Under the pieces are notes generated by a model that ran no database searches, was not told where the DNA came from, and saw nothing but the letters and a program-made list of their open reading frames with translations. Made by a program: the position numbers and the translations under genes. A stretch of 49,034 nt of DNA from a virus. Positions 4,178-25,289 of the stretch are shown here, in pieces. The stretch is from positions 1-49,034 of IMG/VR virus record IMGVR_UViG_3300047469_000247; one strand, 5' to 3'. Positions within the stretch are counted from its first letter, which is position 1, and the number at the start of each line of letters is the position of its first letter.

Positions 4178-6184
4178 ATGACGGTGCAGGCAAAGGCATA
4201 TTTCGCGTGGGTGAGCGGTCTGGACGTCGAATTCGACCCAGTCCTCCACAAGCGCCTCGATCTCGAGATCCAGTCCTTCGCGCTCAGCCAAGCCGAGGGA
4301 GAGGTGTGCCGCCTGTCCGTGACCGCGCTGAACCCGGGCATCGGGCTTCTGGCTCCCGGGCGTCCGCAATACGGCTATCTGTCGGTCTCCATCGACGGAT
4401 CCGCGCCGACCCTCATGTTCCGCGGCATCGTCAACTCGATGCCGACCGACCTCGAGGAAGCCCTCGTCACGATAGAGTTCTACGCCAAGCCCGATGGCAT
4501 GGACAGCACGCCCGACGTGGACGGCAAGCTGGAACTCTTCGCCAAGTCTCTGTCCTTCCGGCCATATGTTGAGCCGCTCATCTCGGGCGACACCTACCGC
4601 AGCCCCGAGACCGTGCTGAACGCGCGCAGCGCCACATACTACATCGACCCGATCACCCACGAACTCTCGCTCAACGACCTGCTCGACTGGCAGCGCCTGA
4701 TCGACCTCGGGCCGATGCACGACCGCGAACGCTTCTCGGTCACGATGGTGGCGCCGCCGCTCGGCTCCGTCACGGTCACGGGTGTTGCCGAATGGACGCA
4801 GGAGTCCCACGGCGTGGTGGACATCGCTGACGCGGTCAACTCCCCCGTGGAGGGCGTGGGTGGACTGAAATCGTTCTCGCAGCTTGATGCGCTGGCCGAA
4901 TCCTTCGACATCCGCGACGTGGAAGGACAGAGCGGCTGGTCGGTCGCCAACGTCGAGCATACGGGGCTTCAGGCAACACAGACGCAGCGGAAGTGGAAGA
5001 CGGGCAATTTCGAGCGCGTCCTGCTGCAGAAGCGCATCGGCTACAACTCCGGCGGCGAACCGATATACCACAATTGGATCGACACCCGCTGGGAGGTCAT
5101 CCCGATGTCCATGTACCAGTTCGAAGCCAAGAAGTTCGAAATGGCCTACCAGTACAGCCAGCCACGCCGAGAAGTCCTCAAGGTCAAGCTGAACGCCGAC
5201 ATCCAGGACATCAAGATGTTCGGGTGGAAAGAGGAAGAACTCCAGGACATAAACCTCGACTCTCTCGTTTCCGATCCTTCGGAGCCGTGGATGGAAAACA
5301 CGCAATACTACGTCGGCGACAGAGTGGTGAAGAAGGACAAGTCCTGGATCTGCCAGATCGACCACGACAGCGGATACGATCCGTTTCAGAAGGTTCTGCC
5401 CCAATACGAGAGCGTGCCGTCATGGCTCCGCAAGCAGGACATGTATCGCTGGAAATGGGTGCCTAAGGATGCTCCGATGCGCGACAAGCGCAGCGCCACA
5501 TTCTACGGCCTGCCCCGCGGCCGCGAGGTCGCCGCACACCTCGTCCTGCGCGCCCGCGCGTTGCTCAGGAAGCGCATGCGTTGTCTCGAGGCGACGATCA
5601 ACGGCAGGTGGGAGGATCTCGCTGACGTTACCCTGAAGGACGCGATCAGGATCGAACACGAGTATTTCCAGACCGAGGACAACCTCGCGACCGGAAAGGT
5701 GATCGCATTCACGAAGACCTGGGACGGCCCGAGCCAGACATACGCGGTTGACGTGACCATCGGCATCTCGGCGGCCAACGGCTACTCGGACCTTCCGCCC
5801 GTGGACAACGGCGTCGGATACTCTCCGGCGTTCGACGGCTACGCCTACCCCGATGACGCGGACATCACCACCGAGGTGACGGACGTGCAGTTCACGGTCG
5901 GCGGCGATGCGATCCGCCAGCCCGTCAACCCATACAAGCTGGGTGACAGCGCCTATTCGTGCATCCGCGTCGGCTACGACATGGCCTACGACAAGCAGCT
6001 AGCCATCGCCTCTAGGGCGGAGGCGATGGGCAGGGATCCGCGCAAGGCGGCCGAGGAAAACCCGACGACCTTCGAAATCGAGATGCGTGCGATCGACGGG
6101 CTGGATCTCATCACCCGCGTGATGAACATCACCTCGACGATCGTGCAGGGGCCGCAGGGCATTGATCTGAAGTGGAGTGGCTGA
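4178..6184 (+). CDS. Putative tail hub / tail tip protein
   Basis: A 668-residue protein that begins two bases after the preceding stop. Size and place (third after the tape measure) fit the baseplate hub or tail-associated protein that links tail tube and receptor-binding parts. The N-terminal 100 residues look like a beta-rich domain (LDLEIQSFALSQAEGEVCRL, MFRGIVNSMP), as in hub proteins built on the gp27 or Tal fold; this is inference from pattern. Residues about 370-400 (NTQYYVGDRVVKKDKSWICQ) resemble a small carbohydrate-binding module of the type seen in phage tails. No peptidase motif was seen. Confidence 0.6.
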   Translation: MTVQAKAYFAWVSGLDVEFDPVLHKRLDLEIQSFALSQAEGEVCRLSVTALNPGIGLLAPGRPQYGYLSVSIDGSAPTLMFRGIVNSMPTDLEEALVTIEFYAKPDGMDSTPDVDGKLELFAKSLSFRPYVEPLISGDTYRSPETVLNARSATYYIDPITHELSLNDLLDWQRLIDLGPMHDRERFSVTMVAPPLGSVTVTGVAEWTQESHGVVDIADAVNSPVEGVGGLKSFSQLDALAESFDIRDVEGQSGWSVANVEHTGLQATQTQRKWKTGNFERVLLQKRIGYNSGGEPIYHNWIDTRWEVIPMSMYQFEAKKFEMAYQYSQPRREVLKVKLNADIQDIKMFGWKEEELQDINLDSLVSDPSEPWMENTQYYVGDRVVKKDKSWICQIDHDSGYDPFQKVLPQYESVPSWLRKQDMYRWKWVPKDAPMRDKRSATFYGLPRGREVAAHLVLRARALLRKRMRCLEATINGRWEDLADVTLKDAIRIEHEYFQTEDNLATGKVIAFTKTWDGPSQTYAVDVTIGISAANGYSDLPPVDNGVGYSPAFDGYAYPDDADITTEVTDVQFTVGGDAIRQPVNPYKLGDSAYSCIRVGYDMAYDKQLAIASRAEAMGRDPRKAAEENPTTFEIEMRAIDGLDLITRVMNITSTIVQGPQGIDLKWSG

Positions 6185-11172: not shown

Positions 11173-11266
11173 GCAGGGCGTAGCTCAAAAAGAGGCGACC
11201 CGGGTCGCTGGTAGAGCAGATGGCTAGAAAGCCTGAAAGGTGCGGGTTCGAATCCCGCCGCCCTGC
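11173..11266 (+). tRNA. Aberrant tRNA-like element with D-loop insertion
   Basis: The ends pair as an acceptor stem (GCAGGGCG with CGCCCTGC). A perfect T arm is present at 11242-11258 (GCGGG, TTCGAAT, CCCGC) and a D stem GCTC/GAGC. The D loop holds about 21 extra bases including the 14-base palindrome GCGACCCGGGTCGC. The anticodon arm is poor: reading CTAGAAA as the loop leaves three of five stem pairs mismatched, while GGC/GCC gives a 3-bp stem with a 6-base loop. No CCA follows. It is either a degraded tRNA gene or a tRNA mimic; a working tRNA is doubtful. Confidence 0.45.
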
Positions 11267-15022: not shown

Positions 15023-16492
15023 TCAAGCCATCGAGTCCTTGGAGGCGACCTGCAGCCGACGGCCAATCCAACGAAGCACGGGGACCGCGACGCTATTCCC
15101 AAGACCTCGATACCGCGGAGCGTCCGCGGCCGGCTTGCCCTTCACGATGATGTCGGTCCAAAAATCGGGGAATCCCTGGAGGCGCTCGCATTCGACGGGC
15201 ATCAGTCTGCGCGCCACGTAGCCCGTCTTCGACTTCATGACCGGAAGATGCTCGACGTCGATGTTCTTCGAGGCTCCCGCCGTCGTCATCAGCGTTCCGA
15301 TGGTATCGGGGTGGACGATGACGAATTCCGTCTCGTTGCCGCCCATGCCGCCCATGCGATCACATCCGACACCGGATGCAAGCAGTGTCGGGATGATTTC
15401 GGGATGGACGACGCCGTGCGGAGTCGTCGTATCCAGGGTGTACATCGGCCCCTCCTCCGTGTGGCCGAAGCCGTTGGCGTTCGGCTGCGCGCCTGGAGAC
15501 TGGAGGGCATAAATCACGCCGTGCTGGCGGGCGGATGACATCAGGGTGTACATCGGGTCGGATGGATCGCCGATACCGGAGCCGACACCAGGAACACCGC
15601 CGGAGCCACCCGACATCTGCCACGGATAGCACGGATAGACAACGGCCGGAGGATCCTTGTAATCCGTGGCGACGAGCGTGTGCGCCGTCCTGGGATCCAT
15701 CACCGGGTCATACTGGCGATTCAGGAGCGCCGTCAGCTCTCCAGCGCCAGCCGCAGCACTTCCGGAACCTTCTTGCCTCGCCTCGACGCGCGCTTCAGAA
15801 CGCCCTGCTTCGCCGTGTCGCTCAAAAAGTATCTCCCCGGGATCGACCGCAGGATCAAAACTGACGACAACGAACACACGGCGGCGTCGCTGGGCGACTC
15901 CGAAAAATTGGGCATCCAAGACGCGCCACGCGATGCGCGCTTCTTGTCCATCAACGTGACCTGCGTTCGTCCAGCGGTTCCCTGGTGCGACCAGCGGCAC
16001 GGACTCTCCGGCAAATCCTGCCAGGATGCATCCGAAGGGGTTTGATTTTTCGTTGAGCATTCCGACGACGTTTTCGAGGGTGACATACTTGATCCCGTTG
16101 ATGCGGCGCATACGCTGCGCGAGCTGGACATAGGTGAGAGAGAGGTTGCCGCGCTCGTCGTCGAGACCGCCGCGCAGTCCTGCGACCGAGAAAGCCTGGC
16201 ACGGCGGCGATCCCTCGAGAATGTCGACGGGCCCGAGTGCTTCCAGATCCGCATCCGTGATCTGCGAGATGTCACCGAAGTTGACGACGCCCTCCTCGGG
16301 GATGTCGGCGTACCCCTTCGGCTTGAAGTCGCTACCTTCGGGCAGATACCGCGGACGGCCGGCCCCGCATCGCTGGTTCAGGACGTGCGCCTGGAACGAG
16401 GCAGGCTCGGCGTAGGCGACGAACTCCCAGCCGAGGGGCTTCCATGCGACGGAGGCGGCGGAAATGCCGCTGAATGTTGACATGACTCTCAT
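15023..16492 (-). CDS. DNA cytosine-C5 methyltransferase
   Basis: A 489-residue enzyme with the ordered motifs of the Dcm family: motif I FSGISAASVAWKPLGW (residues 7-22), motif IV SPPCQAFS with catalytic Cys98, motif VI ENV (140-142), motif VIII QRRRR (201-205), a long target-recognition region, motif IX RRLMPVECERLQGFP and motif X RGLGNSVAVPV near the C-terminus. It transfers a methyl group from AdoMet to C5 of cytosine; the target sequence cannot be read from the protein. No restriction nuclease lies beside it, so protection of phage DNA or gene control is likely. The start at 16492 has AAGGAT upstream; an ATG nine bases later is an alternative. Confidence 0.93.
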   Translation of the reverse strand: MRVMSTFSGISAASVAWKPLGWEFVAYAEPASFQAHVLNQRCGAGRPRYLPEGSDFKPKGYADIPEEGVVNFGDISQITDADLEALGPVDILEGSPPCQAFSVAGLRGGLDDERGNLSLTYVQLAQRMRRINGIKYVTLENVVGMLNEKSNPFGCILAGFAGESVPLVAPGNRWTNAGHVDGQEARIAWRVLDAQFFGVAQRRRRVFVVVSFDPAVDPGEILFERHGEAGRSEARVEARQEGSGSAAAGAGELTALLNRQYDPVMDPRTAHTLVATDYKDPPAVVYPCYPWQMSGGSGGVPGVGSGIGDPSDPMYTLMSSARQHGVIYALQSPGAQPNANGFGHTEEGPMYTLDTTTPHGVVHPEIIPTLLASGVGCDRMGGMGGNETEFVIVHPDTIGTLMTTAGASKNIDVEHLPVMKSKTGYVARRLMPVECERLQGFPDFWTDIIVKGKPAADAPRYRGLGNSVAVPVLRWIGRRLQVASKDSMA

Positions 16493-16568
16493 ATGGATCC
16501 TTTCGGTATCCATCAAGTCTGTGTCCGCGAGTCCTTTGTGGCAATGCACTTTGCAGACGTAATTGAAG

Positions 16569-17654: not shown

Positions 17655-17957
17655 TCAGAGCATGGTCGCGGAGGCTCCGGCGCAGTGGACGCACATCCGG
17701 TTCCCCTTCCACTGCGAGAAGAACTCCTCCGAACACCGCATGCACGGCCGGATCGAGGCCGACGGATCAAGATCCTGCAAACCGTTGCCCTTGCGCCTTG
17801 CCGGCAGCCCGAAGCGATGCACCTTGGATGCGATGGCCGACCGTGACTTGCCAAGGGCGCTCTCCATCTCCCCTTCGGACTTCCCCGCGAACCACAGTTC
17901 CAGAAGCGTGGTGTGATCCTTCTTCGTCCAGTTTACGGCGGGCTGTGGCTGCGACAT
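17655..17957 (-). CDS. GcrA-like cell-cycle regulator homologue
   Basis: A 100-residue protein. Residues 9-55 match the GcrA DNA-binding domain pattern: WT-x(8)-LxxLW-x-AGKS, SALGKSRSAIASKVHRFGLP. The C-terminus holds two CxxC pairs (CMRC and CVHC), which should bind a metal and replaces the sigma-70-binding domain of host GcrA. In Alphaproteobacteria GcrA works with RNA polymerase sigma-70 at promoters carrying CcrM-methylated GANTC. The phage protein may copy or divert that control, in line with the many GANTC sites at its gene starts. Function is inferred by family resemblance. Confidence 0.75.
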   Translation of the reverse strand: MSQPQPAVNWTKKDHTTLLELWFAGKSEGEMESALGKSRSAIASKVHRFGLPARRKGNGLQDLDPSASIRPCMRCSEEFFSQWKGNRMCVHCAGASATML

Positions 17958-18040
17958 CTATTGCTCCGAAATTCAAATCATCTCCCTCCATGATTCCCAT
18001 GCGCGCGGCCGGCGCAATTCCGACAGAGATCCGCCGGCGG

Positions 18041-18081
18041 TTGACAAAGGCCATGAGTGTTTACATAGTGACATCACTAGC
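18041..18081 (+). promoter_or_regulatory. Promoter/operator P1 of the partition genes
   Basis: CCGCCGGCG precedes TTGACA (18041-18046), and ACATAG stands 17 bases further on. The half-site TTTACAT (18061-18067) followed by A and GTGACAT matches the shared operator TTTACAT-N-ATGTAAA found at three other promoters. Confidence 0.6.
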
Positions 18082-18140
18082 GCGCTAGCAGGAAAGCTGA
18101 TTCGCGCACTAGCACGAAAGCGCGCTTTTGCGCTTGCACT
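18077..18140. repeat. Dispersed palindromic repeat, copy D
   Basis: ACTAGCGCGCTAGCAGGAAA, GCGCACTAGCACGAAAGCGC and GCTTTTGCGCTTGCAC make up a 64-base copy in the leader of the parA gene, between promoter P1 and the ribosome site. Confidence 0.75.
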
Positions 18141-18156
18141 CTGGAGAGGGTAAGAC

Positions 18157-18807
18157 ATGACCAAGGTAATCGTTGCTGGAAGCAACAAGGGAGGGAGCGG
18201 CAAGACCACCACCGTTCTCGGCGTGGCCTGCAGGCTGCACGAACTCGGACACAGCGTGGCCGTCCTCGACGTCGATCCGATGGCCTCCGCGGCCGACTGG
18301 GCCGACACATGTGATCTGATCGACGGAGAGCGCTTCGCCGTCCAGTCCGTCGTCGGGGCGCGTCTTCAGAAGACCATCGACGCCGCGCGCGCCAGCAAGG
18401 TCAACTACGTCATCGTGGACACCGCGGCAAAGAGCGAGGCCGATACCCGCATCGCATTCGAGAACGCCGACCACATCCTCGTGCTGTCGCGCCCGTCGCC
18501 GCTCGACCTCCGCGGCATCAGCCAGACCGTCAACCTCATTGATCTAGCGCAAAAGCGCGCTAGCGCACATGTCGTCTTGAACGCTTGCGCGCATTCGGCC
18601 ATCGCCGCCGATGCAGAGGCCGCAGTCAGGAAGACTTACGGACTGCCAGTATGCCCGGTCAAGATCGGCCAGTACATCGCGTTCACCCACGCCGTCACCG
18701 CCGGAACCTCCATCACCGCATTCGACAAGCACGGAAGGGCCGGCGAACAGATCCGCATCCTGACCGACTGGGTCCTGGCTACTCTGAAGAAGGGAGCAAA
18801 ATCATGA
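18157..18807 (+). CDS. parA: ParA-family partition ATPase
   Basis: A 216-residue protein of the small ParA/MinD class. Residues 11-18 are the deviant Walker A box KGGSGKTT, residues 36-42 (VLDVDPM) the switch I region and residues 85-91 (VIVDTAA) Walker B. It binds the nucleoid and moves DNA when stimulated by a partner. The following gene for a ribbon-helix-helix protein overlaps by four bases and is the likely partner. Residues 129-138 (DLAQKRASAH) are coded by a dispersed repeat, placed in a surface loop between core strands. The leader has CTGGAGAG before the ATG. Confidence 0.88.
   Translation: MTKVIVAGSNKGGSGKTTTVLGVACRLHELGHSVAVLDVDPMASAADWADTCDLIDGERFAVQSVVGARLQKTIDAARASKVNYVIVDTAAKSEADTRIAFENADHILVLSRPSPLDLRGISQTVNLIDLAQKRASAHVVLNACAHSAIAADAEAAVRKTYGLPVCPVKIGQYIAFTHAVTAGTSITAFDKHGRAGEQIRILTDWVLATLKKGAKS
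18544..18569. repeat. Dispersed palindromic repeat, copy E (inside parA)
   Basis: CTAGCGCAAAAGCGCGCTAG plus CGCACA. The copy is in frame in parA and adds about nine residues. Confidence 0.75.
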
Positions 18808-23289: not shown

Positions 23290-24213
23290 ATGGCATACAA
23301 CGTCGGAGAAAGCCTGAACCAGATCGCAAAGAACAAGGGCGAGGAACCGCATGAGTTCTTCAAGCGCTTCGCGATGAGCCAGTACATGTTCCGCGTCACC
23401 GAAGCCGATCACGCCGGAGACGTGATGATGATCGGCGGCATGGCGTGGGTCTTCCTCCAGGAGCTCAAGGCCGACGCGCGCAACACCACCGACATGGACA
23501 TCCGCTTCACCCACGTGAAGACCGAGGCCGAAGTCCGCGACATCTTCGAGAACGCCGCGAAGATCGAGCGTGACGATGGAATGCGCTACGAGATCACCAA
23601 GTACGAGGATCTGAACCACAGCGGCGACCACAAGGGCATGCGCGTCCGCATGATCGCACGCTGCGGCGAGGGCAGGTCCGAGCGCCGGGCCGGAGTCCAC
23701 ATCGACGTCGGATTCGGCTATGGAGCCAAGCCGCGCCATGCAAAGGTCGCTGACTTCCCCTCGCTCCACCCGAAGCTGGAGAGCGGCAAGATTCAAATCG
23801 TGCCTGTGGAGTACATAGCGGCCGAGAAGATGTCCGCGATCCTCGTCCACGGCATGGATAACACCCGCCTGAAGGACTTCAACGATCTCTACGTCCTCGC
23901 CTCCAAGAGGCTGGATCCCGCACGCATGGCCGAGGCCGTCGCCCTGACCTTCTCCGAGCGCCGCCACGACATCCCCGCGGACACCTGCGACCTCGAGGGC
24001 CTGTCGATGGCGTTCGTGAAGAAGAACCAGGAGGCGTGGGAGCGCTGGCTCGTCAACTTCAGGCGCACGGAGAAGATGCCAGGGTCATTCGCCGAGGTCG
24101 TCGCCAGGGTCGATGAGTTCATGATGACCTCGTTCCGCGCAGCCGCCGGCTTCCGACACGACGTCGAACTCGAACTCGACGAGGTGGTCTACGCGCCGCG
24201 GAGGCCCGCATGA
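23290..24213 (+). CDS. AbiEii-like nucleotidyltransferase toxin
   Basis: A 307-residue protein with the AbiEii/AbiGii (PF08843) pattern: GGMAWVFLQ near residue 50, T-T-D-M-D-I near residue 67 with the paired acidic residues of the polymerase-beta fold, and AAEKMSAILVHGMDNTRLKD plus FNDLYVL near residues 178-205. Members transfer nucleotides to tRNA or other targets and stop growth, often aborting phage infection. It has its own promoter P3, unlike the usual bicistronic AbiE operon. The next gene overlaps by four bases and may be another control protein. Confidence 0.8.
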   Translation: MAYNVGESLNQIAKNKGEEPHEFFKRFAMSQYMFRVTEADHAGDVMMIGGMAWVFLQELKADARNTTDMDIRFTHVKTEAEVRDIFENAAKIERDDGMRYEITKYEDLNHSGDHKGMRVRMIARCGEGRSERRAGVHIDVGFGYGAKPRHAKVADFPSLHPKLESGKIQIVPVEYIAAEKMSAILVHGMDNTRLKDFNDLYVLASKRLDPARMAEAVALTFSERRHDIPADTCDLEGLSMAFVKKNQEAWERWLVNFRRTEKMPGSFAEVVARVDEFMMTSFRAAAGFRHDVELELDEVVYAPRRPA

Positions 24214-25107: not shown

Positions 25108-25125
25108 CGTTTCTCTCCAGTTGAT

Positions 25126-25243
25126 GAGTCCTTACGATACCGCCGAATCCTGCCGGCCGATATTGCTCTGGAAGGATTCAAAATTTTTCGAGTCCTTCAG
25201 AAGCCCATTTGTGTAATCGAGGCTTGCATTACACAAAGGATTC
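25126..25243. promoter_or_regulatory. Divergent control region with five GANTC sites
   Basis: GANTC occurs at 25126, 25145, 25175, 25190 and 25239 within 118 bases, four times as AAGGANTC or its complement. It lies between two divergent genes, both with CTGGAGAG leaders. About 0.5 site would be expected by chance. Confidence 0.6.
25208..25237. promoter_or_regulatory. Inverted repeat, likely operator
   Basis: TTTGTGTAAT and ATTACACAAA are perfect 10-base inverted arms separated by 10 bases, giving centres about two helical turns apart. There is no T-run, so a protein-binding site is more likely than a terminator. Confidence 0.6.
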
Positions 25244-25289
25244 GATCAGGCTTGAGTAAGGATTTAAACGCTTACTGGAGAGATAGGCA

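Follow-up and report, generated by a model that had tools for sequence, protein, structure and literature searches.

GcrA is one of the rare cases in which a transcription factor is linked both to DNA methylation and to the cell cycle, and a gene of a phage genome raises the question of what a protein does that begins like GcrA and ends in two CxxC pairs. A first-pass annotation had taken the gene for a phage-encoded GcrA-like regulator, in which a zinc-type end stands in for the sigma-interacting domain (SID) and through which phage transcription could be linked to the methylation state of GANTC in the host and to its cell cycle. As an observation on the gene as a whole this was confirmed, while the interpretation attached to it was partly supported. 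The protein is most likely a new combination of known parts, and not a demonstrated methylation sensor.

The source DNA, called the window here and analysed over its full length, is an entire virus record, 49,034 bases long and to all appearance complete. Its two ends share a 127-bp terminal direct repeat, and it carries hallmark genes for a terminase, a tape measure protein, a protease/capsid fusion and an integrase, so its phage origin, asserted beforehand, is correct. The phage also encodes a cytosine methyltransferase and ParA, the latter accompanied by a ribbon-helix-helix gene. The GcrA-like gene opens a leftward block and diverges from parA; its nearest neighbours are parA, one ORF without assignment and the cytosine methyltransferase. 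The features of the gene and its surroundings are as follows.

17655..17957, minus strand: coding sequence of 100 aa, with a GcrA-type helix-turn-helix (HTH), a linker and a C4 zinc-type module (ORF list, Pfam, structure model).
17787..17933, minus strand: GcrA-type three-helix DNA-binding domain, residues 9-57 (PF07750, AlphaFold2, matches to 5yiu, 5yiv and 7ye1).
17682..17744, minus strand: C4 zinc-type module CMRCSEEFFSQWKGNRMCVHC, residues 72-92 (pattern, phrog_13335 match, models).
17964..17967, minus strand: GGAG, likely ribosome-binding site (sequence reading).
18157..18807, plus strand: parA-type ATPase gene, neighbour of the GcrA-like gene and divergent from it.
15023-16513, in the leftward block shared with the GcrA-like gene: cytosine-C5 methyltransferase (profile match).

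The ORF is real: it starts with ATG, GGAG lies six bases before the start, its codon-usage score in a home-made gene caller is positive, and both halves fall in known protein families. A tblastn search of viral contigs returned no relative of the GcrA-like protein, the terminase or ParA, and a search of a phage collection gave none at E 0.01; with the threshold relaxed to E 10 it brought up 16 records, all with coverage below 80%. Elsewhere in the genome there is a gene for an AbiEii-like nucleotidyltransferase toxin (23290-24213, Pfam E 1.2e-21), and Rfam gives a tRNA match at 11174-11266 (34.6 bits) that is absent from ARAGORN output.

The GcrA pattern of the N-terminal half was borne out by sequence and by predicted structure. 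Residues 9-57 match the Pfam GcrA family (PF07750) at 29.3 bits (E 1.3e-6) against a cut-off of 26.9, which is not fully specific, since 2 of 14 named control genomes, Caulobacter and one archaeon, pass it. Among solved chains, a phmmer search by sequence found 5yiu (E 2.3e-4) and 7ye1 (3.0e-4), and GcrA chains only at E <=1. The AlphaFold2 model, built on 30 aligned sequences with a mean pLDDT of 84.8, has helices at residues 12-23, 28-35 and 39-49. The first-pass annotation had named a structural comparison with the GcrA DNA-binding domain as the place where its claim could fail; the comparison gave a match, the best solved structure by VIA-align being that domain (5yiu, Z 7.8, 1.9 A over 48 residues), with GcrA on methylated DNA (5yiv) aligning at Z 7.2 and 1.1 A over 44 residues with 41% identity, and GcrA 7ye1 at rank 1 in Foldseek (E 0.053). 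A Z of 7.8 nevertheless falls in the range of common HTH arrangements, those of Myb, homeodomain and Tc3 scoring 6-7, which counts against reading the protein as a regulator.

The residues themselves give a mixed picture. Of 20 positions kept in at least 11 of 12 canonical GcrA DNA-binding domains, 12 are retained (W10, T11, L18, W22, G25, S27, R39, A41, K45, H47, R48 and R54) and eight differ. The recognition helix accounts for four of these: of the canonical TRNAVIGKxHR, R, A, K, H and R are kept, and N, V, I and G have become S, I, A and S. In a blast search of a genome sample, the three best matches, with others among 12 loci, were SID-bearing GcrA proteins, and by identity the nearest HTHs are canonical GcrA domains (0.45 at best, versus 0.36 for the best paralogue that joins an HTH to the zinc module). 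A tree of the roughly 48 HTH residues places the protein weakly beside canonical GcrA (support 0.47). Given the homology and fold of the domain and the 12 conserved positions, DNA binding by the N-terminal half is very likely.

Beyond the DNA-binding domain the likeness ends. The canonical GcrA C-terminus is the SID, which spans residues 108-173 in Caulobacter according to PMC7403470, and 15 canonical sequences share the consensus CxWPxGDP..FxFCG..YCxxH..AYQ. The pattern CxWPxGDP/FxFC/YCxxH was not found in the 100-aa protein, the Pfam match runs from position 2 to position 51 of a 155-position profile, and the model for functional equivalogs of GcrA (NCBIfam NF050816) gives 23.7 bits, under its curated cut-off of 280. 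Since the protein has no SID, a GcrA-style sigma cofactor role through that domain does not apply. At the place of the SID, the C-terminal half reads RPCMRCSEEFFSQWKGNRMCVHC. Of the idea that the SID was replaced by two CxxC pairs, the loss of the SID and the C4 end both stood, but a replacement specific to GcrA did not, because the module is mobile on many heads. A common family for the SID and the zinc module, both of which contain paired Cys/His, was also considered and rejected (hhalign probability 0.2).

The C4 module itself occupies residues 70-97 with the pattern RxC[LM]xC-x3-FxS-x3-GNR-x-CxxC. The two CxxC pairs noticed at the outset are real, in that a degenerate C4 pattern has a single occurrence in the window against none in 100 dinucleotide shuffles, and a C4 module is present in the model. 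Eight columns, comprising the four Cys and F, S, N and R, are invariant in 52 module sequences. A hairpin (68-71/78-81) followed by a helix (90-97), with the second CxxC at the helix start, is predicted, and from the invariant pairs and this predicted structure we infer that the four cysteines bind zinc. The modelled fold may be described as treble-clef-like, as both hairpin and helix are present, although solved structures resemble it only weakly (Foldseek E no better than 2.2, Z up to 2.5) and the Foldseek and VIA lists run through FmdE, p300 and PHD fingers, all of them weak. A search of solved structures with the zinc profile returned chance-like matches alone. Pfam has no model at cut-off on the module of this protein, and among the members scanned no curated Pfam or NCBIfam model was found, the weak matches being assorted zinc ribbons. 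The module is a strongly conserved stretch of 25 residues in phages and alphaproteobacterial genomes.

Its DNA pattern is found in at least 120 viral contigs, one of which apparently holds a chance frame, and in the viral ORFs the module either stands by itself or follows a RusA, XRE, Myb-like or other head. All 26 module proteins scanned, the window protein plus 25 picked by hand, match phrog_13335, and their heads comprise four RusA, two XRE-type HTH, two GcrA and further HTH matches. Judged by this distribution, the module is a widespread mobile piece that is not special to GcrA. Its presence on RusA and XRE heads means that it does not serve solely to contact sigma; its repeated position behind DNA-binding heads (RusA, XRE, GcrA and other HTHs among the 26) is one point in favour of a regulator. 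The exact GcrA-plus-zinc form is rare in the viral contig collection, as a combined pattern of WT, HRxGL and the zinc motif was found in 0 contigs.

The company that module genes keep in other phages raises a different possibility, that the protein is an accessory of replication or recombination whose HTH anchors it on DNA, with the zinc module attaching to recombination proteins or DNA junctions. Of 179 neighbours, 157 share the strand of the module gene; among 82 neighbours scanned there are matches to families of exonuclease, RusA, SSB, helicase, primosome and O-like proteins, with no head or tail family in the 25 most often matched of 109 families. Together with the RusA resolvase fusions (4 of 26), these families suggest that the module may contact DNA or the replication and recombination machinery, and since the neighbours are often genes of this kind, a non-regulatory role fits too. 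However, these neighbours come from a home-made gene caller and are given as raw matches, not weighed against an early-gene background, and in the present phage parA, the unassigned ORF and the cytosine methyltransferase surround the gene, with no recombination genes among them. We regard an accessory role as unlikely, and the small DNA-binding regulator as the better account.

Relatives of the protein occur in bacteria. A genome scan gave three among 37 candidate stretches, from Shinella, an alphaproteobacterial MAG and a Paracoccus MAG. The Shinella relative joins two HTHs to the zinc module and lies, by eye, beside recombinase-like ORFs, and in the Paracoccus MAG the module alone (5839-6105 of its stretch) lies directly upstream of an ORF that by eye is ParB-like. 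The cultured Thiobacimonas phage vB_ThpS-P1 likewise has a lone module, annotated as hypothetical, at 757-1038, directly upstream of an annotated ParB-like gene. A profile of eight HTH-plus-zinc proteins, scored on up to 10 candidates per genome, matched, as lower bounds, at least 56 of 385 alphaproteobacterial genomes (at least 14 of these over both halves) and at least 3 of 383 in a phylum sample, all three also in the class sample, so this distribution points to Alphaproteobacteria as a candidate host class. Large proteins with a GcrA-type HTH were also seen on Roseomonas and Kozakia plasmids, just before DotI/DotH/DotG-type conjugation genes in Kozakia and before unnamed genes in Roseomonas.

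Of 15 genomes with HTH-plus-zinc proteins that were checked, 12 also carry an ordinary SID-bearing GcrA. Such pairing places the window protein in a side branch, a GcrA-type HTH with a zinc module, that lives beside GcrA and does not replace it. It also bears on the notion that the phage protein antagonizes host GcrA, with a DNA-binding domain that is closest to canonical GcrA and lacks the SID occupying GcrA sites, blocking activation as a dominant negative and shifting the host cell cycle. As bacterial genomes keep these proteins beside their own GcrA, they are not solely phage antagonists, and the substitutions in the recognition helix also count against the notion. An antagonist is, in our estimation, highly doubtful.

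A further claim was that the protein could read GANTC methylation. In its fullest form, the protein would be a methylation-dependent activator, its HTH bound to m6A-GANTC and its zinc module taking over the contact of the SID with sigma or RNA polymerase; homology to the GcrA domain and the retention of R39, K45, H47 and R48 are in keeping with such a role. At face value, so is the distribution of GANTC. Its 155 sites in the genome compare with 324, 242 and 194 expected under Markov orders 1-3, and 44 of the 155 touch noncoding DNA where 20.7 are expected (p 7e-7), which puts GANTC first among 24 letter orders. Under one home-made gene caller, the phage has an intergenic ratio of 1.99; the values for five control phage records are 1.0 (MD8), 0.93 (RcKemmy), 0.93 (phiAP1), 1.32 (50 kb of phiCbK) and 0.58 (50 kb of Ssp-JY42). 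Yet phiCbK and Ssp-JY42 encode a SID-bearing GcrA and show no such excess. Furthermore, dinucleotide shuffles of each intergenic region still give 34.4 sites (sd 5.4) against the 43 observed, with 35 of 500 shuffles reaching 43, and coding GANTC is avoided (111 against 151.1, sd 8.0, in synonymous permutations, with 0 of 60 as low). The apparent intergenic excess is thus mostly composition and coding avoidance, and because the shuffles cut it to 43 versus 34.4, its use as proof of methylation reading was rejected.

A more specific signal was sought in YGAKTCG, the activating motif quoted in PMC7987155; over the whole genome it is not enriched outside genes, with 2 of 16 noncoding against 2.07 expected. 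With the recognition helix also altered at N, V, I and G, the methylation reading that had been proposed is not supported, and the GANTC pattern is compatible with a CcrM host and goes no further. Taking in the eight altered domain positions and the same zinc module on RusA and XRE heads, we find the methylation-dependent activator quite improbable, even with the coding avoidance, the slight intergenic excess and a site of the YGAKTCG type between the GcrA-like gene and parA on its side. That site lies in a region with several other candidate elements.

17958..18156, no strand: divergent intergenic region of 199 bp, with GANTC at 17992 and 18099.
18041..18069, plus strand: sigma-70-like promoter towards parA, TTGACA-17-CATAGT, 10/12 positions.
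18075..18121, plus strand: putative operator-like repeats GCGCTAGCAGGAAAGC (18082-18097) and GCACTAGCACGAAAGC (18106-18121).

The promoter comes from a scan that gave two sites in 3.2 kb against 0.6 expected in shuffles. Downstream of it, the YGAKTCG-type site TGATTCG (18098-18104), one of the two noncoding copies, sits between the two direct repeats, which are possibly the operator or centromere of a partition protein. A copy of the repeat with one mismatch lies at 575-590. In another divergent intergenic region, of 182 bp (25108-25289), there are five GANTC, and within it an inverted repeat, TTTGTGTAAT / ATTACACAAA, at 25208-25237.

We therefore return to a small phage DNA-binding regulator, to which we give about an even chance. 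The GcrA-type HTH would supply DNA recognition, and the C4 treble-clef-like module, at the place of the SID, would make a further contact, either with DNA or with a partner protein. Such a protein would most likely control its own promoter and neighbouring promoters, although no target site could be derived for it; zinc binding, DNA binding, regulation, target sites and expression timing are all features that we infer. A bolder extension holds that the module is an uncatalogued phage and alphaproteobacterial plug that connects many DNA-binding heads to one partner, RNA polymerase or a replication/recombination complex, and that the present protein and its genomic paralogues form a second, SID-independent GcrA-type class still reading GANTC methylation. 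This would be a very improbable outcome. A class with a GcrA head and a swapped polymerase contact would show how the head has been put to new use and whether phages draw on the methylation clock of the host, and the partner of the zinc module, once found, would explain many small phage proteins together.

Phage GcrA homologues are already known. Published reports describe them in five of six phiCbK-like phages (2012, PMC3556154) and in a coral-associated phage (PMC11309003), with a GcrA annotation in phiLM21-like prophages of S. meliloti (PMC12429752) and a GcrA-like protein in Brucella phage Y17 (PMC11836647). Literature searches on GcrA (phage, zinc, structure) and RusA (zinc, treble clef) found no GcrA-plus-zinc protein and no description of the module. 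What is new is that a GcrA DNA-binding domain is joined to a zinc module, and how widely this module occurs.

Compared with GcrA of Caulobacter (PF07750, NF050816), the N-terminal DNA-binding domain is common to both in sequence and predicted fold; GcrA continues through a linker and SID to about 170 aa, whereas the window protein is 100 aa without linker-plus-SID and is changed at 8 of the 20 conserved domain positions. Closer in setting are phiCbK gp222, Synechococcus phage Ssp-JY42 and Rhizobium phage RHph_X2_30, which also have a phage-borne GcrA-type HTH; the first two keep a SID-type C-terminus, the third has a degenerate one, and none of the three carries the zinc module. The 'GcrA family' protein of Streptococcus phage MissC has repeated HTHs and no SID, so annotation of a phage gene as GcrA does not prove GANTC biology. 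Proteins of phrog_13335 share the C-terminal C4 module but differ in their heads, with the GcrA model in 2 of 26. The architecture recurs in GcrA-like proteins of several alphaproteobacterial genomes, Shinella included, which join a GcrA-type or Myb-like HTH to the same module; they are mostly 130-175 aa, with a longer linker and a recognition helix less GcrA-like than that of the phage protein.
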